A model generated the notes under the pieces. It did not search any database. It was not told the origin of the DNA and worked only from the letters and a program-made list of their open reading frames with translations. Shown here piece after piece: positions 7,748 through 32,480 of a DNA stretch of 64,000 bases. The stretch is from Sinimarinibacterium sp. NLF-5-8 (GTDB lineage Bacteria > Pseudomonadota > Gammaproteobacteria > Nevskiales > Nevskiaceae). The position numbers and the translations under genes were made by a program. Numbering within the stretch: the stretch's first letter is position 1; every line of letters starts with the position of its first letter. The DNA lies in assembly GCF_010092425.1 (NCBI RefSeq), contig NZ_CP048030.1, positions 186,001-250,000 of the forward strand. Reading direction: 5' to 3'.

Positions 7748-9496
7748 CTACGAAAAAGCGACAGCACGGATGCTCTCTGGCAAGAACCACCTTTCAAGTG
7801 TTGCGATGGCATCTGGCGAAAGCTGCTGTGTGAACAGCAGGGCAAGGCGGCGTTTCGGTCTTGAGCAGGCAACATAGAACAAGTTTCGATTTCGCTCGAA
7901 GGCCGCCTGCTTCCCGGGTGGGATGGCTGCGCTTCCTGCCAGTTCGAGCATCTCTCCAAAGTTGTACTGGTTCCACCCGCGACCGATGACAACAAGAACA
8001 TTCTCGAACTCCGCGCCCTTTACTCCGTGTTTGGTTTCAAAGGGAGAGTGACCATCCAGATAGCTCCGTAGCGTTTTGATTTCTGCGTATCTGACCGCGC
8101 GTAGCTTCTCTATCTCCGCCAGTGCGGCCGGCATCTCTTCGCCGCTTGCTCGATCGAACTCGCGTAGTTCCCGCTCACGCTTCTCGATGGCTTCCGGGAG
8201 TCTTGGCTTCCGCCGGTTGAGCAGGTGGTCGATGACTTCTCCGACCGTGCCATTTTCGCGAATCGCCAGTAGCTGGCTCATCGCATCGTGCCAGGCTGCC
8301 TTATCGGCCTGACTCCGCAATAGCGGCGTGTTACCGCCCAGCGCATCGAACATGGCGCCGAACCTATTCGCGGAGAAGGCATCGCACGCAGGCTCCAACT
8401 GGTCTACGAAGAAGGCAATATACGGATGTTCCTTCTTGGCAAAGGAATCGTTGTAACGAAAGACTGATGGCAAGCTGGCATAGCCCTGCTCACTGGCAAG
8501 AAGCCTATGCGTCAGCATGAGTACCTTTGTACTTTCCGGGGAAAAATCCCATCCCTCTTGTGTCAACGAGGCCTTCACTCCCTCAAGTGTGTCGTGGCCG
8601 ACTTCCGAAGGTAAATCTCCTCCCCAATGGGCACCGGTTTGTCGTCCTCCAGTCCAGGCATTTGTATGAAATACGCTGACCTGTCCAATAGCGTCAGGGT
8701 CTTCGACAAATTGTTGTAGCTCCGGGCGCATCCGGTTGAGGCAGTCAACAATGGCTTTGACTGATCGGAAGTTGGCTTCCTTGCCAATCTCTTTGACTTG
8801 CGGATGCTCAAGTCTTCCGCATCCATTGCCATATATCTTCTGCCAATGGTCGCCGAAGAAGCCGAATAGGGGTGAAGGCGGATTCCCCAAAAACAGCCGC
8901 TGAATCGCCTCGACCCAATCCTTATCGGTATCTTGATATTCATCCACAAGAATGATTGGAAACCGATCTGTCACTATATGCCTAAATTTGGCATGCTCCA
9001 TCAATGAAACAGTGAGGGGCAACACATCATCGTGATGGAGAGACACGCGATCTTCACGAATGGAGCGGTGCCCAAAGTTGTACTCGATTACACGGTTACC
9101 CAGGCCGCCTCCAGCTTCCGCAATTCTCTCTTGCCATGCCGGCATCGCCTCAACCAAACCACGGAGTTGTTTCTGGAAGCCACTGATCAATGACCAACAG
9201 AAGGCATGATTGGTGTCGCAGTACACCATTGGGCTTCTGTCAGTACGGGCGGCAATTTCATCGCGGGCCACATTGGTAAATGTAATGCACGCAATCTGCT
9301 TGTTTTTCCTTGGAAATGTGCTTTTGTGGCGCTCGATCAAATAGTGGAGCGCTTTGATGAGGGAGTAGGTCTTCCCAGCGCCTGCTCCAGCTTCTAGCCG
9401 GAAGTGCTCTCCGGCATCCAGGCTGCGAAACATGGCATCAAGAGCGCGCTGGCTGGCAACCTCGGCCGGTGACTGCGGATCAGGCATCAGCGGCAT
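7748..9496 (-). CDS. gajB: GajB-like UvrD-family helicase (Gabija defence)
   Basis: A 582-residue superfamily 1A helicase. Visible motifs: Walker A GAGAGKT at residues 37-43, motif Ia ITFTNVARDEI, Walker B VDEYQDTD near residue 205, motif III FFGDHWQKIYG, motif IV NFRS, motif V with TKHGVKGAEFENV and motif VI FYVACSRPKRR near residue 545. It overlaps the upstream OLD-family nuclease gene by 17 bases. An OLD/TOPRIM nuclease directly followed by a UvrD-like helicase is the defining layout of Gabija anti-phage systems. In Gabija, GajB activates GajA cleavage after phage-driven nucleotide depletion; whether that holds here is inferred. The protein is somewhat longer than the first described GajB (about 500 residues). 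Base composition is visibly less GC-rich than the transfer genes on each side. Confidence 0.88.
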   Translation of the reverse strand: MPLMPDPQSPAEVASQRALDAMFRSLDAGEHFRLEAGAGAGKTYSLIKALHYLIERHKSTFPRKNKQIACITFTNVARDEIAARTDRSPMVYCDTNHAFCWSLISGFQKQLRGLVEAMPAWQERIAEAGGGLGNRVIEYNFGHRSIREDRVSLHHDDVLPLTVSLMEHAKFRHIVTDRFPIILVDEYQDTDKDWVEAIQRLFLGNPPSPLFGFFGDHWQKIYGNGCGRLEHPQVKEIGKEANFRSVKAIVDCLNRMRPELQQFVEDPDAIGQVSVFHTNAWTGGRQTGAHWGGDLPSEVGHDTLEGVKASLTQEGWDFSPESTKVLMLTHRLLASEQGYASLPSVFRYNDSFAKKEHPYIAFFVDQLEPACDAFSANRFGAMFDALGGNTPLLRSQADKAAWHDAMSQLLAIRENGTVGEVIDHLLNRRKPRLPEAIEKRERELREFDRASGEEMPAALAEIEKLRAVRYAEIKTLRSYLDGHSPFETKHGVKGAEFENVLVVIGRGWNQYNFGEMLELAGSAAIPPGKQAAFERNRNLFYVACSRPKRRLALLFTQQLSPDAIATLERWFLPESIRAVAFS

Positions 9497-21702: not shown

Positions 21703-22350
21703 TCAGGCCACCCGCCGCAGCGGTTTGCCCGAGGCCAGCTCGACCTGCGAAACACCAAGGGTGCCGTTGCGGATCAGTTCGCCCAGCGCCGTAGTCAGCG
21801 CCGGAACGTCCAGGGCCAGCCGATGGCCTTCCAGTGGCCCGAGGGCGAACGGAAGGCGCGTCAGCATGTCCCGCGATTGCAACAGCTCCAGCACGGCATC
21901 GCGCCAGTGATCGAGCAGCGGCAGGGGGCAGGTCTCCCGCACCAGCGCCCATAGGCGTTCGGTGTGGTCGGTCACTGTCCTGGGCAGTAGCGCCAATGCG
22001 CTGGCGTTGGCCTTGTCGGGCTTCACGCAGCGCTTGTCGAACAGCCACAGATGAGACATGGAACCGAACAGCGTGCGCCGGAAGGTGCGCGTGGTGCGCT
22101 TCTCCAGGTTGTCGGGATTGCCGACGAAGACCGGAATCGACGCCTGATCGGTGACGAGATGGAACTGGTCCAGTCCCTGCTCGGACCGACCGAGGGTCAG
22201 ACGGGCAAGGAACTCCTGGACGGCGGTATCGCGCGCCCAGACGGACAGGAAGACGAGGTTGCCGTGCTCGTCGCCGATGCAGCCGTCGGCCATGAGGTCG
22301 GGGCATTCGTCGATGCGGTAGAGCACATTGGGTGATGTAGATGCAGGCAT
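21703..22350 (-). CDS. Hypothetical ICE accessory protein
   Basis: A 215-residue soluble protein starting at ATG 22350 with GGA upstream. No signal peptide, membrane segment or known catalytic motif is visible. It is predicted mostly helical after residue 100. It carries the family leader and, further upstream, structured element A. I do not recognise the family; conservation on related ICEs is likely but not shown here. Confidence 0.7.
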   Translation of the reverse strand: MPASTSPNVLYRIDECPDLMADGCIGDEHGNLVFLSVWARDTAVQEFLARLTLGRSEQGLDQFHLVTDQASIPVFVGNPDNLEKRTTRTFRRTLFGSMSHLWLFDKRCVKPDKANASALALLPRTVTDHTERLWALVRETCPLPLLDHWRDAVLELLQSRDMLTRLPFALGPLEGHRLALDVPALTTALGELIRNGTLGVSQVELASGKPLRRVA

Positions 22351-22420
22351 GGTGATGTCCTCGAAGAAAACAGAGGCAGCACCACCCGCGAGGGCAGTCA
22401 CTGCCCCAAGGGGATGGAAG
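22351..22420 (-). promoter_or_regulatory. Switch-like leader unit 4
   Basis: On the minus strand GGGGCAG, TGA and CTGCCC form a 6-bp hairpin, while CCC can instead pair with a following GGG across TCGC. The two hairpins exclude each other. It lies before the start of the 215-residue hypothetical gene. Confidence 0.6.
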
Positions 22421-22449
22421 GGAACGCCCGTGAGCGTCTTGGCAAAGAG

Positions 22450-22532
22450 AACAACCAGTGCGTCGCAACGCACCGTAGCCTTGAAGGTCTTGGCTACCTG
22501 GGCATGTTGTCGGCAACGCCGACGGACATGGG
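22450..22532. ncRNA. Structured element A (paralogue of B and C)
   Basis: Three helices are visible: GTGCGT/ACGCAC (22458-22473), GTAGCC/GGCTAC (22475-22497) and a CATG-flanked hairpin GTCGGC/GCCGAC (22503-22530). The same order and spacing recur at 25545-25618 and 31818-31891 with different but still pairing bases. It lies in the 5' region of a minus-strand gene, so minus is the likelier transcribed strand. Confidence 0.6.
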
Positions 22533-22623
22533 AAGTAGCCTGCTTCAACAGGCCGGTGAGCGGGAGCGAAAAACCGTCACGCGACACAACCCTGTTTGCG
22601 GGGAACTCCGAAGAGACTACCGC

Positions 22624-22667
22624 TGAAAGAAAAAAGCGGACCATGCCGACATGAGCATGATCCGCTT
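22624..22667 (-). terminator. Rho-independent terminator after the DUF2703 gene
   Basis: A 13-bp stem (22634-22646 with 22655-22667) is followed on the minus strand by TTTTTTCTTTC. Its single non-Watson-Crick position is a G-U pair only when read as minus-strand RNA, which supports this orientation. Confidence 0.88.
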
Positions 22668-22684
22668 GTATGGCACCCGCCCGC

Positions 22685-23155
22685 CTATCCGCATGAGCGG
22701 CATGATGCCTCTGACGAGCGCCCGTCTGGAAGCAGGTAATTCTTGACGTATTCGGGAATTTCCCGCAGTTCTCGGTCCTTGAGTGTGTCGACGTCCTTTG
22801 GAACGCCCCGCAGGAGCAAATCCAGCAACATGCCAACAGGTGGATCTGAGAATTCTTTGCCACCCCAATGCCATACGCGAGCGTCACTACCTGGAACATG
22901 GAGAGGAGAAACTTCTGCGTCAGCTAACCGGAGAGTGGGTGATGCGTAGAATCCGAGCTGATTCGCCTGCTCAATGGTACTGACCAGGATACGGTTGACT
23001 CTTACTTCATAGCCAGCTTCGGCAAGGATTGGTTGGGCAACCTTTAGAGTGGAATCCAACTTCTCCGTCACCGTGTCACATGCGGCGCAGGATTTCTTTC
23101 CGCTATTGGACATATCTACTTCCAGAAACAAAAGATCTAGCGTTTTAGTGTTCAT
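22685..23155 (-). CDS. DUF2703 domain protein of an arsenic-type cassette
   Basis: A 156-residue protein starting at ATG 23155, overlapping the upstream arsR stop by four bases (ATGA). Near the N-terminus it has LFLEVDMSNSGKKSC followed by CAACDTV, and it ends with CRSCG, so it carries several thiols that could bind metalloids. DUF2703 proteins are small and of unknown function, often next to ArsR-type regulators. The cassette has its own terminator and lies between unrelated ICE genes, which suggests a separate insertion. An arsenic or redox role is inferred. Confidence 0.75.
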   Translation of the reverse strand: MNTKTLDLLFLEVDMSNSGKKSCAACDTVTEKLDSTLKVAQPILAEAGYEVRVNRILVSTIEQANQLGFYASPTLRLADAEVSPLHVPGSDARVWHWGGKEFSDPPVGMLLDLLLRGVPKDVDTLKDRELREIPEYVKNYLLPDGRSSEASCRSCG

Positions 23156-23445
23156 GCTGTGTTTTCTCCTGGGGGTTGAAGTTCTGCGATAAGTAGCATC
23201 AGGCGATCTAAGACTTGCGGATCTACGCAGTAACACACTGCGGGACCGTCGATCTCGCCTTTGACTATCCCGGCATCCTTCAGAACGCGAAGGTGCTGCC
23301 AAACTGTCGTTTGCGCTAACGGCAGTTCATCTACTAGGTCGCCGCAAACACATGCTCGCTTACGCAGGATCTGGATGATTTGTACACGCACCGGATGCGC
23401 TAGTGCTTTGGCCAACAGCGCTAACTCCGCTGATTTCTTTGACAT
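23152..23445 (-). CDS. ArsR-family transcriptional repressor (first copy)
   Basis: A 97-residue winged-helix repressor starting at ATG 23445. The DNA-binding helix region reads LAQTTVWQHLRVLKDAG. A Cys-rich RACVCGDL stretch just before it matches the alpha-3 metalloid site of ArsR proteins, and a further CYC lies near residue 75, so it should sense As(III) or Sb(III). It is co-transcribed with the DUF2703 gene. It differs clearly from the second ArsR at 25773, so the two cassettes have separate origins. Confidence 0.85.
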   Translation of the reverse strand: MSKKSAELALLAKALAHPVRVQIIQILRKRACVCGDLVDELPLAQTTVWQHLRVLKDAGIVKGEIDGPAVCYCVDPQVLDRLMLLIAELQPPGENTA

Positions 23446-23587
23446 ACCATGCCCTCTATTCGTAATTCGTAGAATAGCGAAACGCTGGGACCGCGTCAAG
23501 ATGGAATGGACGCCTAACTATCCCCTTGAGGGTTGGGGCAATCGGCGTCGAGAGGCCAGGAGCTGGATGCGAGCGATTGCGTGGGAC

Positions 23588-23613
23588 AAAGAAAGGCCCT
23601 GCGGAACAGGGCC
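23588..23613 (-). terminator. Terminator after the small accessory gene at 23662
   Basis: The hairpin GGCCCTG / CAGGGCC (23595-23613) with a 5-base loop is followed on the minus strand by TTTCTTTG. It ends transcription after the 126-residue gene. Confidence 0.75.
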
Positions 23614-23661
23614 TGTGATCTTCGACGAGGCGTAGCAATGACGCTGGGAGGGAGGCCCGGA

Positions 23662-24042
23662 TCAGGCCGCCGACACTGGCATGCGCCGACGTGCGTGATG
23701 GGCAAGCACGCCTTCACGCCACTCGGGGGATTGCACCGGCGCCATGTCGAGATAGCGCAACGGGCACGAGTAGTAGTAGGGGTGCATGGATTCATCCAGG
23801 GGCTTGTGGCCCCATTCGCCGCCCGAGCCTTGTAGCAGGTCGCAGCGGATGACGTTGATGGAATCGCCGGCAGCGAGCTTCATGAATCCCGACTGCTTGG
23901 CGGTGATGCGCGCCACGGACCACAGCACGTTGCCGCGTAGGGCGTGGGCGATGACCTCCGAGCGAGCGTTCTCGCTCTCCTGCGGTTCGATCAGTTCGCG
24001 GATCAGTTGGTCGCGGGTTTGCCGCGAGAAATACCAGCCCAT
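23662..24042 (-). CDS. Small ICE accessory protein (DUF6927-like)
   Basis: A 126-residue soluble protein starting at ATG 24042 (MGWYFSRQTRDQLIREL), with AGGAG upstream. It has no membrane segment. I associate the N-terminal sequence with a family of single-domain proteins on large plasmids and ICEs (DUF6927, from memory), whose function is not known. It has its own switch-like leader and terminator, so it is an independent transcription unit or an attenuated one. Confidence 0.7.
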   Translation of the reverse strand: MGWYFSRQTRDQLIRELIEPQESENARSEVIAHALRGNVLWSVARITAKQSGFMKLAAGDSINVIRCDLLQGSGGEWGHKPLDESMHPYYYSCPLRYLDMAPVQSPEWREGVLAHHARRRMPVSAA

Positions 24043-24110
24043 GGGAGTTCTCCTGTAAAAAAAGCCGGAGCACTCCCCGACGGGGGAAATACCCCGGCGG
24101 GTGGTTGGAA
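24043..24110 (-). promoter_or_regulatory. Switch-like leader unit 5
   Basis: The minus strand reads CCACCC, CCGGGG, TATTT, CCCC, CGTC, GGGG and then a U-rich tract before AGGAGA. The CCCC block can pair with either GGGG block. This is one of the clearest members. Confidence 0.65.
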
Positions 24111-24133
24111 CGTCGCGGGAAGCGACGGAGGGA

Positions 24134-24742
24134 TCAGGCGGAGGCGATATGCCAGTCCTGGGACAGTGGCGCGAACTCGTAGCCCAAGGCACCGAGACGG
24201 TCCCGTTGCTGACGCAACAGGCGGCGATCGACGGTGGCATCGAGCTTGACGATCTCGCCCAGCGGCCAGAGAGCGCCGAACAGCGTGGCGTCGTCCTGTG
24301 TCACCGGCTTGGAAGCCGGCTTGGCGGGAACGTCGGCACCGAACGGCGTGGTATCGACCAGGGGGTCGCTGGACGTTGCCGCCTTCGCTTCGGCAGGTGC
24401 CGAAGTGGAAGGGACAGGCCGTTGCGCTTCCTCGTCGATCGGATCGACTTCCTGGGGACTCAGCCGGTTGGCTTCATCGCGGCTCAGGTGGTCGATGTTC
24501 GATAAGGTCATTCCGCCCAGGTGCGCGCGGATCTCGATGACCATGCGGCCGCTGGTGTTGTACGTCGAAGGACGAATCTCGGTGATGACGAAATCGCCCT
24601 CGTACTTGCCTTCGCGGTACTGGTCCAGCTCGGCGTTCTTGATGACGAACTCGCCGATGGAGGTGGCAAGGCGGCCGACGTTGAAGTCGCCGTTTCTGCC
24701 GTGGATGGTCTTGATGGCCAATTGGCCGGGAAGAGTGATCAT
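24134..24742 (-). CDS. DUF3275 family ICE protein
   Basis: A 202-residue protein. The N-terminal half (residues 1-90), beginning with MITLPGQLAIKTIHGRNGDF, is a compact beta-rich domain that matches my memory of DUF3275 proteins on PFGI-1-type ICEs. An acidic, low-complexity linker (about 100-160) and a short helical C-terminus follow. GGAGC lies upstream of ATG 24742. Function unknown; it lies next to the STY4534-like replication-associated gene. Confidence 0.8.
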   Translation of the reverse strand: MITLPGQLAIKTIHGRNGDFNVGRLATSIGEFVIKNAELDQYREGKYEGDFVITEIRPSTYNTSGRMVIEIRAHLGGMTLSNIDHLSRDEANRLSPQEVDPIDEEAQRPVPSTSAPAEAKAATSSDPLVDTTPFGADVPAKPASKPVTQDDATLFGALWPLGEIVKLDATVDRRLLRQQRDRLGALGYEFAPLSQDWHIASA

Positions 24743-24800
24743 GGGTCAGCTCCTTACGATGAGGTCACGAGACGCCGACCGGAAAGACCGGCGGTTCGTT
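24743..24800 (-). promoter_or_regulatory. Switch-like leader unit 6 (sequence-diverged)
   Basis: Here the blocks read CCGG, TCTTT, CCGG, TCGGC instead of GGGG/CCCC/GGGG, yet the middle block can still pair on either side. The base changes keep the alternative pairing. Confidence 0.5.
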
Positions 24801-24804
24801 GGAT

Positions 24805-24837
24805 GGAAAGGAAGCAAGGCCCCGGTGAGGGGGCCTT
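24805..24837 (-). terminator. Terminator after the STY4534-like gene
   Basis: The hairpin AAGGCCCC / GGGGCCTT (24816-24837, 6-base loop) is followed on the minus strand by GCTTCCTTTCC. The T-run is imperfect, so read-through is possible. Confidence 0.6.
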
Positions 24838-24843
24838 GTGGGT

Positions 24844-25371
24844 TCAGAACGACTCGGCCAACGCCGGTACTTCGGCTGCTTCGTCGTCGGAAACCGTCTC
24901 GGATGCGGGTGCATCCTGGACAGCGGGTTCGCTCGAAACGCTGGGCGCTTCGTCGCGAGCCGTTTCCTCGGAGGCCTTGGGTTCGGCCTTGTAGACGAGC
25001 TGGCCATCGACCTTGATCCAGCTCACGAAGAGCAGGCGGGCCTTCAGGCTGACGCCCTGTTCGCCGACACGCTTCCCCTTGCTGTAGGTGAAGATGTCGG
25101 TCCACAGATCGCCCAGGCGGAAGCCGATCAGCACTTTGCGTTCGGCCTCGACGGCGGGGACGCAACGGCGGATCAGGTGCTGCGCTTCGCTGCCGGATAC
25201 GCGCACGTCGAAACGGCGGTACTCCGGCTTGTCGCTGGGACCATTGAGCGCTGCGATGTCGCAGGCCAGGAAGGCATCGCCTTTCTTGGGCTTCACTTCG
25301 CGGATGCGATTGAGATACCCGAGGCCGGTGATGTGCAGGTCGAAGTAGGACTTTTCGGATGAAGTGGTCAT
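24844..25371 (-). CDS. STY4534/DUF3577-like ICE replication-associated protein
   Basis: A 175-residue protein starting at ATG 25371 with GGAG upstream. Residues 1-125 form a beta-rich domain that resembles a single-stranded-DNA-binding-like fold (FDLHITGLGYLNRIREV near the start). The last 50 residues are a disordered acidic tail, as in SSB-type proteins. In ICEs of this family the STY4534/DUF3577 protein is annotated as replication-related. It is preceded by the best example of the structured element (B) and by the family leader. The ars operon diverges from the same intergenic region. Confidence 0.78.
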   Translation of the reverse strand: MTTSSEKSYFDLHITGLGYLNRIREVKPKKGDAFLACDIAALNGPSDKPEYRRFDVRVSGSEAQHLIRRCVPAVEAERKVLIGFRLGDLWTDIFTYSKGKRVGEQGVSLKARLLFVSWIKVDGQLVYKAEPKASEETARDEAPSVSSEPAVQDAPASETVSDDEAAEVPALAESF

Positions 25372-25455
25372 GGTGAATCTCCAGGCTTGAGAGACAAGAA
25401 GGCGGAGACACACCCACCCCGGCGGGGAGGCATAACCCCCGCGCGGGTTGATGGA
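25372..25455 (-). promoter_or_regulatory. Switch-like leader unit 7
   Basis: The minus strand shows CGCGGGGG, TTATGCCT, CCCC, GCC, GGGG, then GTGTCTCCGCC and the GGAG ribosome site. The C-block can pair with either flanking G-block. Confidence 0.65.
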
Positions 25456-25458
25456 TCG

Positions 25459-25620
25459 AACGATCCAGGTACTGCTTGTGCATCCTTCGCCCTGGGAGGG
25501 GCGAACGTTCGCGCATGGGATGCTGGTGCGAACTGGATCGGTCACGCGGTCGGAACCGCGCCGTAGCCTCGAAGACCGTGGCTACCTGGGCATGTCGCTG
25601 ACGGATCAGCGGAACATGGC
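25459..25620. ncRNA. Structured element B (largest copy)
   Basis: It holds a nested pair of helices, GCATCC/GGATGC (25480-25523) around TTCGCC/GGCGAA (25486-25505); then CGCGGT/ACCGCG (25545-25560), GTAGCC/GGCTAC (25563-25585), and a CATG-flanked hairpin CGCTGA/TCAGCG (25591-25618). Elements A and C carry the same helices with compensatory changes. It lies in the 5' region of the STY4534-like gene. Confidence 0.65.
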
Positions 25621-25736
25621 CGCAAGCATGGAGGAGCCGTGCGGGGAGTGTCGCGCCGCAATGCGTTCTTGCCCGCTCCCCCTTTGTCGATCAAGGAACT
25701 GACGGCATAGCCGCCTTGGTGAGCCGGGATAGTTCC

Positions 25737-25766
25737 TTGCCAATAGTTCTACAGTCGTTGTATCAT
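25737..25766 (+). promoter_or_regulatory. Promoter of the ars operon
   Basis: TTGCCA (25737-25742) and TATCAT (25761-25766) are separated by 18 bases. The arsR ATG at 25773 falls where transcription should begin, so the first gene may be translated from a leaderless or near-leaderless message. The AT-rich spacer is a likely ArsR operator. Confidence 0.6.
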
Positions 25767-25772
25767 TGAAAC

Positions 25773-26099
25773 ATGAATGAAGATCAGGCAGTTAACGCTC
25801 TCAGTGCATTGGCCCACACCCAGAGGTTGCGCGTGTTCCGCGCCCTCGTGGTGACGGGGCCGGCCGGCCTGACGCCCAGCGTCCTGGCCGACCAGCTCGA
25901 AGTGGCCCGTAACACACTCTCCTTTCATCTGAAGGAGCTGGCCCACGCCGGGCTGGTCACGGTCGAGCAGCAGGGGCGCAACCTGATCTATCGCGCCGAT
26001 TTCGCGCAGATGAATGGCCTGCTCGGCTACATGACCGAGCACTGCTGCCAGGGCTCTGCCTGCGAAGTCTCCGATTCGGACTCTTGTGCGTCCTGTTGA
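25773..26099 (+). CDS. arsR: ArsR-family repressor of the ars operon
   Basis: A 108-residue winged-helix repressor. The DNA-recognition helix region reads VARNTLSFHLKELAHAG at about residues 43-59. Metalloid-binding thiols are not in that helix but near the C-terminus (HCCQGSAC at about 92-99 and CASC at the end), as in the ArsR subtype with C-terminal cysteine pairs. It heads a six-gene plus-strand operon and probably represses it from the promoter directly in front. No ribosome site is visible; the start may be leaderless. Confidence 0.9.
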   Translation: MNEDQAVNALSALAHTQRLRVFRALVVTGPAGLTPSVLADQLEVARNTLSFHLKELAHAGLVTVEQQGRNLIYRADFAQMNGLLGYMTEHCCQGSACEVSDSDSCASC

Positions 26100-26113
26100 A
26101 AGGAGCAGTATTC

Positions 26114-26596
26114 ATGAAGCGATTCCATGTCCACCTGAACGTCGATGACCTGAACCGCAGCATCGGCTTCTACTCGCAGCTCTTCGCCGCCCAACCGGCG
26201 CGTGTCGAGTCCGACTACGCGAAGTGGATGCTCGAAGACCCGCCGGTCAACTTCGCGATCTCCACGCGCGGCGACAAGCCGGGCATCGACCATCTCGGCA
26301 TTCAGACCGATTCCACCGAAGAACTCGCCGCCCTGAAGGCGCGTGCGCAGGCGGCCGATATCGCCCTGCTCGATGACGGCGAGACGACGTGCTGCTACGC
26401 GCGCAGCGAGAAGCATTGGGTCACCGATCCACAAGGCGTGGCTTGGGAGCATTTCCACTCCCTGGGGAACATCCCGGTGTTTCATGAGGGCGCGGAACCA
26501 GCGGCTGCTCCGGCTGCGGGTTCGTGTTGTGCGCCTGCCGGAGTAAGTGACCGGCCTGCCGGCATCGCCGTGAAGGCCAAGTCTTCCTGCTGCTGA
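26114..26596 (+). CDS. arsI: ArsI/CadI-type glyoxalase-fold protein (C-As lyase-like)
   Basis: A 160-residue vicinal-oxygen-chelate protein with AGGAG upstream of ATG 26114. Candidate Fe(II) ligands are visible: His5, His60 and Glu112. A vicinal pair Cys93-Cys94 in ETTCCYARSEKHW matches the trivalent-arsenical site of ArsI. ArsI enzymes break the C-As bond of methylarsenite and aromatic arsenicals. The C-terminus adds SCCAP and a final SSCC, further thiols that may hold metalloid. CadI-type cadmium-induced proteins share this fold, so the lyase activity is by homology. Confidence 0.85.
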   Translation: MKRFHVHLNVDDLNRSIGFYSQLFAAQPARVESDYAKWMLEDPPVNFAISTRGDKPGIDHLGIQTDSTEELAALKARAQAADIALLDDGETTCCYARSEKHWVTDPQGVAWEHFHSLGNIPVFHEGAEPAAAPAAGSCCAPAGVSDRPAGIAVKAKSSCC

Positions 26597-26611
26597 TTCG
26601 AGAAATTTCCT

Positions 26612-27109
26612 ATGACCACCGAAAGAATTTACAACGTCCTGTTCCTCTGCACAGGCAACTCGGCGCGCTCCATCATCGCCGAAGGACTCCTCAACCACCT
26701 CGGCAAAGGCAGATTCCGCGGCTATTCGGCCGGCAGCATGCCCAAGGGTGAGGTGCATCCGATCGCGCTGGCGACCCTGGAGAAGCTGGAACTGCCGACC
26801 ACGGGATATCGCAGCAAGAGCTGGGATGAGTTCACGCTGCCCGACGCGCCGCTGCTGGATTTCATCATCACGGTCTGCGACAACGCCGCTGGCGAGACCT
26901 GCCCGGTCTGGCCGGGGCAGCCCGTCACCGCCCATTGGGGTGTGCCAGACCCGGCCGCAGTGGAAGGCAGCGAGGTCGAGAAGCACCTGGCCTTCGCGGA
27001 CACCGCCCGTGTCTTCCGGCGCCGTATTGAACTGTTCCTGTCACTGCCTCTGCGAAGCCTGGACAGCATGTCCTTGCAGAACCAGGTACGCGACATCGGC
27101 AAGCAGTGA
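26612..27109 (+). CDS. arsC: Arsenate reductase, low-molecular-weight phosphatase type
   Basis: A 165-residue protein with the phosphatase P-loop FLCTGNSARSI at residues 11-21, which holds the catalytic Cys. The thioredoxin-coupled arsenate reductases of this type reduce As(V) to As(III); Cys78 or later thiols in VCDNAAGETC (about 88-97) would form the disulphide cascade. It lies 15 bases after arsI. A second, unrelated arsenate reductase (glutaredoxin type) is fused to ArsN2 further down, so the operon carries two reductases. Confidence 0.9.
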   Translation: MTTERIYNVLFLCTGNSARSIIAEGLLNHLGKGRFRGYSAGSMPKGEVHPIALATLEKLELPTTGYRSKSWDEFTLPDAPLLDFIITVCDNAAGETCPVWPGQPVTAHWGVPDPAAVEGSEVEKHLAFADTARVFRRRIELFLSLPLRSLDSMSLQNQVRDIGKQ

Positions 27110-27121
27110 GCGCGGTCGAAG

Positions 27122-28048
27122 ATGCCTTTGTCTCACTTCGCCCCCAAGGGCGCCCTTGCCCTGAAGGCGCTCCTTGCACGGGCAGCGCTGGTGCTGGCCG
27201 TTCTCTTCAGCCTTGGCGTTTTCCTGGTCGCCAGGGAAGCAGGACTCAACCTTGAGGTTGCGGTTCTTGCCGCAGCGGTCATGACGCTGCTGGCGGCGCT
27301 GGTGCTGGAACGGTACATGCCGTTTCGCCAGTCCTGGAACCGTTCCACGGGCGATACCGGCATCGATCTGACAAGTGCGGCAGCGCTGCTCGGCGTGGTC
27401 GAGCCGTTGCTCAAGTACGGGGCGCCGCTGGCCGTCGTCTACCTGTACGGCTTGCTGCCCGTGCTTGAAGCGGGACGGGAAGCCTGGACCGCAGTCCCCT
27501 TCGTCGTCCAGCTTGTCGCGGCCACGGCCATGATCGAGTTCGGCCGCTACTGGTCGCACCGGCTCCACCACACGCACGAGGCGCTGTGGTGGCTGCACGC
27601 CATGCACCACAGCAGCGAGCGTCTCTACACGCTGAACAACTTCCGCTTTCATCCGCTCAACTACGTCATCAACTTCGGCATCGGCGTTCTGCCGGTCATG
27701 CTGCTGGGGGTTCCGGCGGATGTCCTGCTGGGCTATCTGGCGATCTCCCAGCCGGTGCTGATGCTCCAGCACGCCAACGTCGATCTGCGCAGCGGCTGGG
27801 CCAACTACCTGTTCAGCACCAACGAACTGCACCGCTGGCATCACTCAACCGTCATGAGCGAGGCCAACAATAACTACGGCAACGCCTTCGTGCTGTGGGA
27901 CATGGTGTTCGGCACCTTCAAGTACGAACCACAGGCGAATGAGCCGCAACGCATCGGCCTGTTCAGCAGCAGTTCCGGCTACCCCGGCACGAGCAGCTAC
28001 CTGCACCAGTTGCGGTCGCTGTTCACACCTGCTTGCTGCAGAGCCTAA
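27122..28048 (+). CDS. Fatty acid hydroxylase/sterol desaturase family membrane protein
   Basis: A 308-residue protein starting at ATG 27122. Four or five membrane segments are visible (about residues 12-35, 40-60, 95-115 and 135-155, with more near 185-205). The di-iron histidine clusters characteristic of the family are clear: HRLHH (about 145), HAMHHSSE (about 158) and HRWHHS (about 240). The enzyme should hydroxylate or desaturate a lipid in the membrane. Its place inside an ars operon, between two arsenate reductase genes, is notable; its substrate and any link to arsenic, for instance arsenolipids, are unknown. Confidence 0.85.
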   Translation: MPLSHFAPKGALALKALLARAALVLAVLFSLGVFLVAREAGLNLEVAVLAAAVMTLLAALVLERYMPFRQSWNRSTGDTGIDLTSAAALLGVVEPLLKYGAPLAVVYLYGLLPVLEAGREAWTAVPFVVQLVAATAMIEFGRYWSHRLHHTHEALWWLHAMHHSSERLYTLNNFRFHPLNYVINFGIGVLPVMLLGVPADVLLGYLAISQPVLMLQHANVDLRSGWANYLFSTNELHRWHHSTVMSEANNNYGNAFVLWDMVFGTFKYEPQANEPQRIGLFSSSSGYPGTSSYLHQLRSLFTPACCRA

Positions 28049-28059
28049 CAGGAAGCCTC

Positions 28060-28884
28060 ATGCGCGAATTCACGATCTACCACAACCCTGACTGCGGCAC
28101 TTCGCGCAACGTACTGGCGATGCTTCGCAAGAGCGGCATAGAGCCCGTCGTCATCGAGTACCTGAAGACGCCGCCGGATCGCGCCATCCTGGTCTCCCTG
28201 ATCGCCAGTATGGGCATGCCCGCGCGCGGCCTGCTGCGCGTCAAGGGAACGCCCTACGGCGAGCTGGGCCTGGACGATCCGAAGTGGACCGACGATGAAC
28301 TCGTCGGCGCCATGGTCGAGCATCCGATCCTGATCAACCGGCCCATCGTGGTGGCACCGAAGGGCGTGCGGCTGTGCCGGCCTTCCGATCTGGTGCTGGA
28401 ACTGCTGCCCGATCCGCAACTGGCTTTCACCAAGGAAGAAGGCGTGTCCGCCTTGCTGTCGGAGCCAGCCGGTGAGGACGACGCCCCGCGAGAGGCCCTG
28501 GCGGCCGCCGGGCTGCCCGTCGATGACCTGGACGACCCGAACCTCGTGCTGCTGCGATTTCGGTTGCCGGCCGGCGACACCGTGGGCTATGGCGGCTTCG
28601 AGCGCCATGGTGACGCCGCGCTGCTGCGTTCGATCGTCGTGCTGCCGGCCTATCGCGGTTCCGGCATCGGCCGCAATCTCATGCTGCTGCTGATGCGCCG
28701 TGCATTCGACGCCGGTGCGCAGCAGGGCTATGCGCTGACGACGAGCGCGGACGACTGGCTGGAAAAGCTCGGCTTCAAGCGCCTCGACCGCGCCCAGGTG
28801 CCCGAGGAAATCCTGCGGACCCGCCAGGCCACACAGCTTTGCCCGAGCGATGCGCGCATCTGGAGCCGCTCCCTGCGGCCCTGA
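28060..28884 (+). CDS. Fusion of glutaredoxin-type ArsC and ArsN2 acetyltransferase
   Basis: A 274-residue two-domain protein starting at ATG 28060 (GGAAG upstream). Residues 1-125 are a glutaredoxin-type arsenate reductase with HNPDCGTSRNVL at 8-19, holding the catalytic Cys12, and the Arg-bearing NRPIVV near 90. Residues from about 150 are a GNAT domain: acetyl-CoA loop VVLPAYRGSGIGRNL near 205-219 and the ArsN2-like ending LGFKRLDRAQVP. ArsN2-type enzymes acetylate metalloid-containing compounds; ArsN1 acts on arsinothricin. Fusion puts the reductase and acetyltransferase in one chain. The frame runs without interruption across the junction. Confidence 0.88.
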   Translation: MREFTIYHNPDCGTSRNVLAMLRKSGIEPVVIEYLKTPPDRAILVSLIASMGMPARGLLRVKGTPYGELGLDDPKWTDDELVGAMVEHPILINRPIVVAPKGVRLCRPSDLVLELLPDPQLAFTKEEGVSALLSEPAGEDDAPREALAAAGLPVDDLDDPNLVLLRFRLPAGDTVGYGGFERHGDAALLRSIVVLPAYRGSGIGRNLMLLLMRRAFDAGAQQGYALTTSADDWLEKLGFKRLDRAQVPEEILRTRQATQLCPSDARIWSRSLRP

Positions 28885-28928
28885 ATTGACGCCGGCTTTG
28901 GCCGTACCGAATCCAAGGAGATTACCTG

Positions 28929-29996
28929 ATGACATTACCTCAACCGGCATCGCGCCTGTCCTTTCTGGACCGCTACCTCACGCTCTGGATATTCGCCGCC
29001 ATGGCGCTGGGCGTGGTGCTGGGCATGATCTTCAAGGGCCTGCCCGACGCGCTGAACGCGATGTCGGTCGGCACCACCAACATCCCGATCGCCATCGGCC
29101 TGATCCTGATGATGTACCCGCCGCTGGCGAAGGTGCGCTACGAGGAATTGCATCGGGTGTTCGCCGACAAGCGCGTGCTGCTGCTCTCCCTGGTGCAGAA
29201 CTGGCTGATCGGGCCGGTGCTGATGTTTGCGCTGGCGGTGATCTTCCTGCGCGACCATCCCGAGTACATGACGGGCCTGATCCTGATCGGCCTGGCCCGC
29301 TGCATCGCGATGGTGCTGGTCTGGAATCAGTTGGCGCGGGGCGACAACCAGTATGTCGCGGGCCTGGTCGCGTTCAATTCCATCTTCCAGATCCTGTTCT
29401 TCTCGACCTATGCCTGGTTCTTCCTGTCGGTGCTGCCACCGCTGTTCGGCTTGCAGGGTAGCGTCATCGACGTCAGCTTCTGGACCATCACCGAGGCCGT
29501 GCTGATCTACCTGGGCATTCCATTCCTGGCCGGCTTCCTGACCCGCCGCATCCTGATCGGCAGGAAGGGTGCCGAATGGTACGAGCGCGTCTTCCTGCCC
29601 AGGATTAGCCCGATCACGCTGGCGGCGCTGCTGTTCACCATCGTCGCCATGTTCAGTCTCAAGGGCGGCGACGTGGTGCGGTTGCCGATGGACGTGCTGC
29701 TGATCGCCGTGCCGCTGACGATTTATTTCATCGTCCAGTTCCTCGTCAGCTTCTTCATGGGGAAGCTGATCGAAATCGATTATCCGCGCACTACCGCGAT
29801 CGCCTTCACGGCGGCCGGCAACAACTTCGAGCTGGCGATCGCGGTCGCCATCGCGGCGTTCGGGTTGGCGTCGCCCGTCGCGTTCACGACCATCATCGGC
29901 CCACTGGTGGAAGTGCCGGTGCTGATCATGCTGGTTCATGTGGCCCTGCGACTGGGCGAGAAGTGGTTCCCCGCAACCGCTCCCGTGCGGCCATGA
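28929..29996 (+). CDS. acr3: ACR3-family arsenite efflux permease
   Basis: A 355-residue membrane protein with about ten hydrophobic helices. The ACR3 signature is visible around residues 118-132, with the essential Cys in [12 protein letters not shown]. It exports As(III) formed by the two reductases encoded upstream. It is the last gene of the operon, 44 bases after the ArsC-ArsN2 fusion. AAGGAG lies 10 bases before ATG 28929. Some annotations call it arsB; it is not related to the true ArsB family. Confidence 0.92.
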
Positions 29997-30150
29997 CCGA
30001 CCTTGCCGCGTACCACCGCCGTTGGGACGGTGCTCACCCCACTGGTTGGCGGCAACGAACATCGTTCTGCTGGCTTTGCTCTGGATGACGCATCGGCGAC
30101 CGTAGTGGCGGAGCAGCCGCTGGTTTCGTGGCGTGCCTGCGGGCCGCACA

Positions 30151-30175
30151 AGGAAAGAGCCCCTCGAAGGGGCTC
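30151..30175 (-). terminator. Terminator after the gene at 30189
   Basis: The perfect hairpin GAGCCCC / GGGGCTC (30157-30175) is followed on the minus strand by TTTCCTTG. It separates this minus-strand unit from the converging ars operon. Confidence 0.78.
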
Positions 30176-30188
30176 AAGATGGAGGAAT

Positions 30189-30914
30189 TCAGTCTTCGTA
30201 GACAGGCAGGCCGTCCAGTATCGCGGCGTTCGGATCGAAGACCAGTATGCGCACGTCTGCCATGGCGGCCAGGTGCAGCACGTTCAGCAGCGGCGTGGGG
30301 ACGCACGCATCCATCTGATCGCTGTGCAGTGCCTGGGCATTGCGGCCATCGACGATTTCGAGATTGGCGTCAGTCCAGGGCGTAGCGATCAACTTCACGC
30401 CCACGGCATCGCTGTCGGGAATCCTGAAGGCTTCAAACAACAGGCCGGTGAGCGTGGATGTGTCCGCGAGGTCTTCGAGGTACTGCATCGTTTCCTCGGG
30501 AAGGTGCCCGGAACTGATCTCCCAGCATCGGCTGTAGTGGCCGGTGTCGAAGGTCAGACGCCGCACCACGTCGCGGGCGGCTTCCTCGGAATAGGTATCG
30601 CCGACATGCACTGGCGTCCCGGAGTCGTCCGCCATGACGGCATAGATCACCGTGCGCGCGATGCCATGGTTCCGGCATTGAGCGTCCAGTTCATCCGGCA
30701 CGGCTTGGCCTTGAGTGATCAAGGTGAAGTCGTCGCAGAAGACGCATTCATGCCGCTGGATCTGGTCGTCCCGCAGATGGGACTGCGAGGCATGCAGCGG
30801 AAGATAGGTCAGCGGGCAGTCGTCATCGTAGGCAATGGCGATCATTCGCTGAATGGAAAGGCCGTTGTAGCCACGGACGAAGGGATTGGAAACAGGATTG
30901 GCATTGGGGTTCAT
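30189..30914 (-). CDS. Hypothetical ICE accessory protein (DUF5983-like)
   Basis: A 241-residue soluble acidic protein starting at ATG 30914 with GGAGA upstream. Residues 55-80 contain HECVFCDDFTL, a CxxC pair, and the C-terminal part has LAAMADVRILVFDPNA. I tentatively relate it to DUF5983-type proteins of ICEs and plasmids, but this is from memory. Function unknown. It has the switch-like leader and its own terminator. Confidence 0.65.
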   Translation of the reverse strand: MNPNANPVSNPFVRGYNGLSIQRMIAIAYDDDCPLTYLPLHASQSHLRDDQIQRHECVFCDDFTLITQGQAVPDELDAQCRNHGIARTVIYAVMADDSGTPVHVGDTYSEEAARDVVRRLTFDTGHYSRCWEISSGHLPEETMQYLEDLADTSTLTGLLFEAFRIPDSDAVGVKLIATPWTDANLEIVDGRNAQALHSDQMDACVPTPLLNVLHLAAMADVRILVFDPNAAILDGLPVYED

Positions 30915-30990
30915 GATGGTTCTCCAGTAGAGGAAAGGCGGAGCCGATCCCCTGCCGGGGATCGACCCCAGAGGGATGAAAGAAACGGTG
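30915..30990 (-). promoter_or_regulatory. Switch-like leader unit 8
   Basis: The strongest unit: on the minus strand GGGG, TCGAT, CCCC can form one hairpin, while GATCCCC, GGCA, GGGGATC forms a perfect 7-bp alternative. Both use the same C-block and cannot coexist. Confidence 0.7.
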
Positions 30991-31020
30991 CCCGTCACGA
31001 ATGACGGGCCGCCGGTGCTG

Positions 31021-31413
31021 TTACCAGCCGGTGTAGTTGAGGATCAGCGTGGCGATGATCTTGCGTCGCTCCAGGTCCAGGCCGCCCAGGTCGGCCAGAC
31101 CGTGGACGCCAACGCGCTTGAGCAGCGCACCGCCGTCCTTGGAGTTGTAGAAGCTCACCATCGCGGCGAGAAAGACCCTTTCGCCGGAACTCATGGTGCC
31201 GATGGTCTTCCTGATGACGGCGACGTTCGGGCACAAGTCCCACTTGTCCACGGCCAGGTTCAGACATTCCTGCGTGCCGTTGCCGAACAGGCCGGGGCCG
31301 ACCAGTTCGACGCCGCGCTTCCAGGCGTGGAAAAAGGCTTGGGGTGCTTTCGAGAAATGCAGATCGTTGCGTGCGATCTCGTCAAAGATCGCCTGCTCGT
31401 TCATCGGATTCAT
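31021..31413 (-). CDS. Hypothetical ICE accessory protein
   Basis: A 130-residue soluble protein starting at ATG 31413 (an in-frame ATG four codons later is also possible), with AGGAG upstream. No signal, membrane segment or known motif; mostly helical by composition. It lies between two other small accessory genes on the same strand and is the only one of them with no clear switch-like leader, so it is probably co-transcribed with the 77-residue gene upstream. I do not recognise it. Confidence 0.65.
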   Translation of the reverse strand: MNPMNEQAIFDEIARNDLHFSKAPQAFFHAWKRGVELVGPGLFGNGTQECLNLAVDKWDLCPNVAVIRKTIGTMSSGERVFLAAMVSFYNSKDGGALLKRVGVHGLADLGGLDLERRKIIATLILNYTGW

Positions 31414-31446
31414 GACGAGGTTCTCCTGATGACAGATGGATGGGGA

Positions 31447-31680
31447 TCACGGGTACGGGCGCTGCGTCCATGCGCTGGTTTCCAGGGCATGGCGAGCGGC
31501 CTCGTGGCTCGGGAAATACTCGACGGACTCGCGGGAGACGGGGCCGTCGTCGTCGAAGGTGCCGATGTAGTGCCCGGCGGCACTGCGCAGCACCTGCAAG
31601 GGCAGGCTTTTGCCCACATACGCCAGCGCCAGCAGACCCGAAGGGCCTGTGGGCTTGAGTGCGACAGGATCGAAGGACAT
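31447..31680 (-). CDS. Small hypothetical ICE accessory protein
   Basis: A 77-residue protein starting at ATG 31680, with AGGAGAG upstream. It contains a short beta-rich core and YFPSHEAARHALETSAW near the C-terminus. No family is recognised. The leader carries the alternative-hairpin element, and structured element C lies just upstream, giving the same arrangement as in front of the genes at 22350 and 25371. Confidence 0.6.
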   Translation of the reverse strand: MSFDPVALKPTGPSGLLALAYVGKSLPLQVLRSAAGHYIGTFDDDGPVSRESVEYFPSHEAARHALETSAWTQRPYP

Positions 31681-31745
31681 GGTGCTCTCCTATGAAGGGA
31701 TGGGAAGCGCCACATCCCGACGGGATGAAGCGGATTCCCGTGGGG
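31681..31745 (-). promoter_or_regulatory. Switch-like leader unit 9 (compensatory variant)
   Basis: On the minus strand GGGA, ten bases, TCCC, then ATCCC, GTC, GGGAT. Relative to the GGGG/CCCC units, both sides of the stem have changed together, which supports real base pairing. Confidence 0.65.
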
Positions 31746-31893
31746 TGGAGCGAAGCATCGTCGCCAGGACATGGCGATGGTCCGCAGGAGCGATGCGAAG
31801 CGGACTGGATCGGTCAACGCGAAAGAACCGCGCCGCAGCTTTGAAGACCGAAGCTGCCTCGGCATGGTGCTGACGGAGGTCAGCGCGCATGGG
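31745..31893. ncRNA. Structured element C
   Basis: Nested GCATCG/CGATGC (31755-31796) around TCGCC/GGCGA (31761-31777), then GCAGCT/AGCTGC (31835-31857) and CATG-flanked GCTGAC/GTCAGC (31863-31891). Compared with B, both arms of most helices differ in step. The unpaired run ACTGGATCGGTC is kept between B and C. Confidence 0.65.
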
Positions 31894-32480
31894 GTGTAGG
31901 TTCGGAGGCTTGGCGTGCATTGGCGAGCCGAAATCCGCTCGCGGTGATCGCCCGATTGCTTGCCGAGCGTGGTGCGTCGGCGCAGCGAACGCTGGCGTGA
32001 GAGGAAAAGCAGCCGAAGGCGGGAGCCTTCGGCGGGGAGGAATCACCACCCGTGGGCTGTTGCAGGGCGTGGCCGTCGTCAAAGCCTGCCGCTGGTCCAG
32101 CAATCTCACCCGACCCGTTTCGTGGCTGGGGCCGGAAACCTCTGGCACACATCCGCGCACAAAGGGAACCCGTTGTTTCGCCGGCGGGCACCGGCACCGA
32201 GTACCGTGGACCCGAGGGGTCTCCTGACGATTCGCGCAGCGCCGGCGGGCCGGCAAGTCGTCAGGAGACCCCTCGCGATCAACGGAAGGAACACTGATCA
32301 ATCGAATGGCGGCGAGCGCCATTCGTGGAGAAACGACCTTCTCGTCCCGTGGCCTGTATCGGCCAGGCGGAACGCGCACACCGTTGCAGAAGGAGACGCG
32401 CGCTGGGGAGTCCCACGGGGCGCGGGACGGTTTGCCTCGCCGTCAGTGAAATCCCGGCGCGGCAGATGTGTTCATTGGCA
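31894..32480. other. Gene-free interval rich in hairpins
   Basis: No convincing gene lies here. It holds a perfect 8-bp tetraloop hairpin (32013-32032) that on the minus strand is followed by CTGCTTTTCC, an 18-bp inverted repeat (32213-32275) with a smaller GCCGG/CCGGC hairpin inside its loop, and a 9-bp hairpin CGAATGGCG/CGCCATTCG (32303-32325). It lies between the topB stop and structured element C, so it could hold the topB terminator, a promoter for the 31.7-kb genes, or a single-strand initiation or origin site. Confidence 0.55.
32213..32275. repeat. Perfect 18-bp inverted repeat (cruciform-prone)
   Basis: Left arm 32213-32230 (CGAGGGGTCTCCTGACGA) and right arm 32258-32275 are exact reverse complements. 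The loop holds a second hairpin, GCCGG/CCGGC, at 32241-32254. There is no T-run, so it is not a plain terminator. Confidence 0.85.

Follow-up and report, generated by a model that had tools for sequence, protein, structure and literature searches.

Copies of radC RNA head operons of a putative integrative and conjugative element in Sinimarinibacterium sp. NLF-5-8 and may act on their translation

The 64,000-nucleotide window analysed here (Sinimarinibacterium sp. NLF-5-8, contig NZ_CP048030.1, positions 186,001 to 250,000) contains three structured elements, A, B and C, which lie in what we take to be an integrative and conjugative element (ICE). An Rfam 15 cmscan of the window returned three matches above the gathering score of 40 bits, all of them to RF01754 (radC RNA), on the minus strand and aligned over model positions 1-149: A at 22394..22540 (90.2 bits, E 1.4e-15), B at 25480..25628 (124.4 bits, E 2.3e-23) and C at 31755..31901 (105.9 bits, E 3.7e-19). 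The three elements belong to a known RNA family and are not a new RNA. These E-values are far beyond chance and confirm the original prediction of three elements with the same order of helices; the search in Rfam that it called for supplied the family name. STAXI and int-alpA, the families it had suggested, have no covariance-model match in the window at E <= 1, and the only other Rfam match at that threshold is to one unrelated small RNA model (22.2 bits vs a gathering score of 80). The elements had been located correctly but drawn too short: A was given as 22450-22532, and the family match runs from 22540 to 22394, with the minus strand being the functional one. Our own covariance model, R1, also matches A (103.6 bits, 22540-22398). 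All three predicted copies are genuine, but the genome holds four. The fourth, at G000:C1:185126-185272, lies 729-875 bases to the left of the window and also scores above the gathering score over the full model. A search of the whole genome at E <= 0.001 gave no copy beyond these four, and an own-model search of the window plus 15 kb to its right gave no additional radC RNA.

That the elements lie in 5' regions of minus-strand ICE genes, as predicted, is borne out by the same-strand coding regions, which begin 43, 108 and 74 nt below the ends of A, B and C, respectively. B forms the leader of a gene for a DUF3577 / STY4534-family ICE replication protein (24844..25371, minus strand; PF12101 E 5.8e-62, NF040584 E 2e-60), which is followed by a DUF3275 gene. 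The first gene below A is a 215-aa open reading frame (ORF; 21703..22350, minus strand) with no Pfam or NCBIfam match, after which comes a DUF6094 gene. C heads a 77-aa ORF and then a 130-aa ORF, and the fourth copy lies upstream of a RadC-family gene (PF04002 E 1.4e-43). Genes for topoisomerase III, SSB, TraD, PilL2, TIGR03759 and PFL_4669 are also found in the neighbourhood, and from these family names the host element is taken as an ICE of the ICEclc/PFGI-1 type.

The first ~135 nt of the RNA are predicted to fold into the hairpins P1/P2, P3, P4 and P5. Alignment of relatives supports one more stem (P5) and two pseudoknots (PK1 and PK2) that are absent from the nested Rfam model. PK1 pairs the loop of P3 with a segment 3' of P4 in nearly all copies; PK2 pairs the loop of P5 with the 3' end in the larger subtype, to which B and C belong. 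A contains P1-P4, PK1 and a shifted P5, without PK2. As read by eye, A-type and KfrB-type leaders have P5 in a different register and no visible PK2. In a first set of 164 rows PK2 was readable in 116, the remainder lacking either this P5 or the anchor. The stems listed in the original prediction are present in the sequence: GTAGCC/GGCTAC in A and B, which is GCAGCT/AGCTGC in C; the CATG-flanked hairpin GTCGGC/GCCGAC in A, CGCTGA/TCAGCG in B and GCTGAC/GTCAGC in C; and GTGCGT/ACGCAC in A, which is CGCGGT/ACCGCG in B. The same is true of GCATCC/GGATGC and TTCGCC/GGCGAA in B and of GCATCG/CGATGC in C, but the first of these had been read as nested, and this was wrong: GCATCC/GGATGC crosses the stem GTTCGC/GCGAAC and is therefore a pseudoknot. 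Both partners change together across relatives in P5 (GTTCGC/GCGAAC, GTCCGC/GCGGAC, GATCGC/GCGATC, GTGCGA/TCGCAC, GGTCGC/GCGACC, GCTCGC/GCGAGC and others) and in PK2 (GGCATC/GATGCC, GCATCC/GGATGC, GCTTCC/GGAAGC, GCATTC/GAATGC, GCACC/GGTGC and GACATC/GATGTC).

A first set of 150 and 109 closely related sequences had little power to detect covariation, and more diverse Pseudomonas copies were therefore added. We applied R1 to the loci L107-L227 (116 of 121, with five near-duplicates omitted) and to the earlier sets, which yielded 380 hits, 286 distinct full-length sequences with flanks, and finally 108 representatives. We tabulated 98 of these and dropped 11 with fewer than five P5 pairs, so that the P5 pairing rate in the 87 that entered the tree-based test stems partly from selection. 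The test was a script of our own, modelled on R-scape but distinct from it, and used 200 null alignments evolved on the same tree. Five of 7626 column pairs reached E < 0.05, and all five fall within the proposed structure (two in P3, one in P4 and two in P5); no pair outside it scores better than E 0.36, and the structure holds 18 of the top 30 pairs. The original reading of the covariation as the mark of a functional structured RNA is supported. When only the 39 proposed pairs are counted, those significant are 1/5 in P2, 2/6 in P3, 4/6 in P4, 3/6 in P5 and 2/7 in PK2. The 3' helix of the Rfam model (GCG with the terminal UGC) is formed in 79, 87 and 71 of the 87 sequences at its three pairs, but none of the three covaries, whereas P5 and PK2, which use the same bases, do covary.

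For PK1, none of five pairs is significant in the 87-row test, in which PK1 is misaligned in some rows. Tree-based support for this pseudoknot comes from the better-aligned first set, where two of its pairs rank near the top (E 0.3 and 1.5 over 4371 pairs, or ~0.002 and ~0.009 if counted over 26 proposed pairs only); in the all-pairs test of that set only two pairs pass, both in P3, and no PK2 pair does. Extraction by anchors, a plain count of pairs, recovered PK1 from 106 of the 108 representatives, with the inner pairs formed in 105, 106, 104 and 106 of 106 and the outer pair in 68/106. The anchors fix some letters, and these rates are therefore partly built in; the matched changes are not (CGATC/GATCG, CGGTC/GACCG, GGATC/GATCC, TGATC/GATCA, GAACC/GGTTC, GAATC/GATTC and GAGTC/GACTC).

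Counting the own genome in each case, RF01754 occurs in 6 of 61 relatives, in 3 of 11 genomes of the own genus, in at least 2 of 369 genomes of the class and in at least 6 of 398 genomes spread over the phylum. In the genus to which G598 belongs, taken to be Pseudomonas, it occurs in at least 222 of 398 species-level genomes; the last three counts are lower bounds, with only 7 or 8 first-look candidates scored per genome. Pseudomonas genomes have up to at least seven matches each, and some copies are only ~600-1500 nt apart in one locus (for example in L107, L142 and L196). Linkage to the DUF3577 gene was assessed in the best 80 of 245 relatives, picked by similarity to the gene in the window. 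All 80 loci contain radC RNA, in one to four copies each, which given this choice of loci is no rate for all ICEs. The 208 matches at E <= 1e-6 all lie on the coding strand, that of the DUF3577 gene, and at E <= 0.01 there is one weak match on the opposite strand (25 bits, L069). A copy lies just upstream of DUF3577 in 77/80 loci by script; L033 and L062, missed by the script's sequence pattern, also have a copy ending ~100 nt before the DUF3577 match. L043 has no radC RNA just upstream of DUF3577, unlike the other 79 loci. Elsewhere (L134, L139, L142, L143, L145 and L146) radC RNAs head a gene for a small protein whose C-terminus is hydrophobic (MKTELALYQAL...); no gene of this type was noticed in the window. 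In L110 and L114, where the RNA has a -35-like box, the longest ORFs starting within 330 nt have 84 and 73 aa; a long leader and a stand-alone RNA are both conceivable here.

Promoters were sought in 72 non-redundant upstream regions of the L107-L227 set, which come from Pseudomonas and one sister-genus genome (G762). TTGAC occurs exactly 24-27 bases before model position 1 in 34/72 and at most once at any other position; TTGAC at this fixed spacing is a sigma-70 -35 box. TTGAC[AT] is found in 27/72, and in 24 of these 27 the best -10 element, picked as the hexamer nearest to TATAAT, follows 17 or 18 bases on and mostly reads xATnnT. It falls on model positions ~0-5 of RF01754, so the first bases of the family are likely to be the -10 box and the RNA would start about at P1. 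Judged by the position of the promoter, radC RNA probably starts at or next to the transcript start.

The ICEclc-like set has TTGAC[AT] at that position in 0/80 cases and contains instead a conserved 38-base motif with the consensus ..AA...GG.........g.tgCcgaTT.ccgctcGcc. A weight matrix built from 75 upstream regions, with the own genome excluded, has a shuffled maximum of 11.2 in 177772 positions. It identifies putative ICEclc-type promoter motifs upstream of A (22561..22598, score 21.3), B (25650..25687, 21.9) and C (31922..31959, 23.7), all on the minus strand. The training set includes near-identical relatives (the 38 bases before the L025 copy at 7926 are identical to those before C), and these three scores are therefore not independent. 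The scores of motif sites that lack the RNA are independent: on the minus strand, one such site precedes the PilL2 gene (TIGR03748; 17627..17664, score 18.3) and another a PFL_4669-family gene (TIGR03761; 38418..38455, 16.6), so that promoter and RNA look like separable modules. Weaker sites without RNA score 13.8, 13.5 and 11.5, and one in L105 scores 14.3. Across the 80 loci, 300 motif sites exceed the shuffled maximum, and 205 of them are followed within 60 nt by a radC RNA; this figure is partly circular, as the matrix was trained on sequences from such places. In L038, upstream of 8240 and 9758, intrinsic-terminator-like hairpins with T runs seem, by eye, to close the preceding operon right before the promoter motif. 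Directly upstream of the motif of B is a plus-strand block (25773-29996) with ORFs that we named by eye as an ArsR-type regulator, an arsenate-reductase-like protein and an ACR3-like arsenite transporter; the motif is left intact.

At the other end of the leader, base pairing is predicted to cover the Shine-Dalgarno (SD) sequence of the first gene. The 291 distinct cores gave 233 distinct leaders in which a start codon follows a recognisable SD, and from these we took 95 representative leaders. The predicted pairing of the SD with the upstream leader averages 0.83 in the 95 leaders vs 0.56 in 250 control genes that also have an SD and come from these loci (Mann-Whitney 2e-18, a value that relatedness inflates). 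The longest SD-covering complement has a mean of 6.6 nt vs 3.7 nt in the controls, and a pairing probability above 0.9 is reached by 42/95 leaders vs 33/250 controls. In 70 of the 95 leaders that were compared with shuffled versions, SD pairing was 0.845 vs 0.647, and the real leader scored higher in 62. The SD hairpins show matched changes on both strands (TCTCC/GGAGA, CCTCC/GGAGG, CGTGCTCC/GGAGCACG and GTGTTTCTCC/GGAGAAACAC). A predicted hairpin at 22356..22378 (minus strand) pairs the SD GAGG of the gene below A (start codon 22350) with a probability of 1.00, and the hairpin TCTCC/GGAGA at 25377..25409 (minus strand) is predicted to do the same for the DUF3577 gene (start codon 25371; also 1.00). 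The leader from C to the start codon at 31680 spans 31681..31754 (minus strand), and its SD at 31691-31687 is partly paired. Transcription attenuation was considered and rated low: TTTTT occurs in just 5/95 leaders, which makes a simple intrinsic attenuator unlikely.

The order of promoter, 5'-terminal pseudoknotted RNA, spacer with more hairpins, SD-pairing hairpin and gene is the layout of a translational cis-regulator. With moderate confidence, we favour the explanation that radC RNA is a 5'-terminal cis-regulatory leader that acts on the translation of ICE operons. A, B and C would then stand at the very beginning of three separate ICE transcripts, and we infer that transcription starts on the first stem or only a few bases from it. 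The last predicted hairpin would pair the SD of the first gene and keep translation poor by default, and the folded 5' domain, which probably senses or binds a small molecule, a host factor or a protein of the ICE, would decide whether the mRNA is translated or stable. Several observations weigh against this account. P1 shows no significant covariation (0/4 in the 39-pair test of 87 representatives), PK2 is broken at one pair (T-T) in 5/87 rows, and the weight-matrix scan found no promoter motif adjoining the fourth copy. The SD is less paired at C (0.73) and at the fourth copy (0.68), and 3/95 leaders have no SD complement of 4 nt or more. No base pairing was found that joins the 5' domain to the SD hairpin, so that a two-state switch is only a possibility; the SD hairpin could just as well fix a constant low rate of translation. 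No ligand or partner was identified.

A compact 5' fold might instead shield ICE mRNAs from decay, or help polymerase through long operons, with no regulation of translation. The placement of the RNA at the very 5' end would suit such a role, as would the scarcity of TTTTT that speaks against an attenuator, and Gaillard 2010 (PMC2892462) describes long ICEclc transcripts, estimated at 8.5 kb, and a transcript that is abundant upstream of ORF81655. We consider a stability or transcription element of this kind unlikely, as it leaves the strong SD pairing and its matched changes unexplained. Somewhat easier to entertain, though still doubtful, is a leader that serves as the binding site of an ICE-coded repressor protein, in autogenous control and with no small ligand. 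The genes below the RNA recur between ICEs in the loci that were read, and one element carries the leader on several of its operons, but no candidate RNA-binding protein was identified.

The original prediction had left open whether the fold is one of RNA or of single-stranded DNA. The F-plasmid Frpo sites are single-stranded DNA promoters, for which selection on the fold of the transferred template strand would be expected, and a comparable promoter or signal on the strand transferred during conjugation would sit well among nearby genes that act on DNA (ICE replication protein, RadC, topoisomerase III and SSB). In the 87 representatives, however, the coding strand has 118 G-U vs 47 A-C pairs, or 93 vs 17 if P1 and the two optional PK2 ends are set aside. 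An A-C pair on one strand is a G-T pair on the other, and the asymmetry therefore points to selection on the coding strand, the opposite of template-strand selection; no probability is attached to it because the sequences are related. The G-U excess makes an RNA more likely than folding of the opposite DNA strand, and a fold of coding-strand single-stranded DNA may still be possible. A promoter readable in double-stranded DNA also precedes the fold, and the layout of the ribosome-binding site points the same way. Of the two alternatives, RNA is thus the favoured one, and we regard a DNA signal as highly improbable.

Returning to the translational leader, the same RNA stands on several operons of one element, so that a single signal would reach them all at once. 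Tentatively, radC RNA might be a shared ICE translational switch, in which a double-pseudoknot sensor frees the sequestered ribosome-binding site only in the transfer-competent state or on new arrival in a recipient. If this were true, it would add a post-transcriptional layer on top of the known transcriptional regulon. The arrangement suggests how a mobile element may coordinate the translation of several operons. With radC RNA placed 5' on ICEclc-type transcripts, behind the element's promoter motif and before a predicted sequestered site, its role becomes directly testable in an established system.

The radC motif was graded by Weinberg et al. 2010 (PMC2864571) as an RNA (Y), probably cis-regulatory (y) and ambiguous as a riboswitch (?), and its table row names the Proteobacteria; the excerpts of the literature available to us state no function. 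The four copies described here agree with that motif in passing the gathering score over the full model and in lying upstream of genes. They differ from the nested Rfam model, which lacks PK1, PK2 and P5, has a 3' helix without covariation here, and whose first few positions look like a promoter -10 region and not RNA. Rivas 2020 (PMC7657543), using CaCoFold, already names radC/RF01754 as one of the families whose database structures lack base pairs and reports that the Rfam and ZWD versions differ, so our revision of the fold is at most partly new; PK1, PK2 or P5 may already be in print there. The STAXI motif (Weinberg 2010) is similar in having pseudoknots near SSB, topoisomerase and antirestriction genes, but, as noted above, it is not matched in the window. 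Sulser 2022 (PMC9286271) describes a 27-bp motif common to 8/9 transfer-competence promoters, 152 bp from the mapped inrR start site; this distance does not fit the 38-base motif, and the two may therefore differ. A structured leader is not mentioned in the excerpts of Sulser 2022 or Gaillard 2010, and promoter and leader terms were not found in the text of Carraro 2020 (PMC7423338). Despite the abundant transcript, Gaillard 2010 obtained no 5'-RACE product, and primer extension gave only a weak product ~250 bp upstream of ORF81655; a structured leader, if ORF81655 has one, would explain this. The ICEclc inrR promoter reported in the same paper has a -35 box TTGACT and a -10 box TGTCGATCCT, and these hexamers recur almost exactly at the L025 motif site without RNA, which contains TTGACT and TGTCGATGCT. 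By eye, 18 nt separate the end of the motif from GATGCT in L025, and 18-19 nt separate it from a -10-like hexamer at A, B and C.

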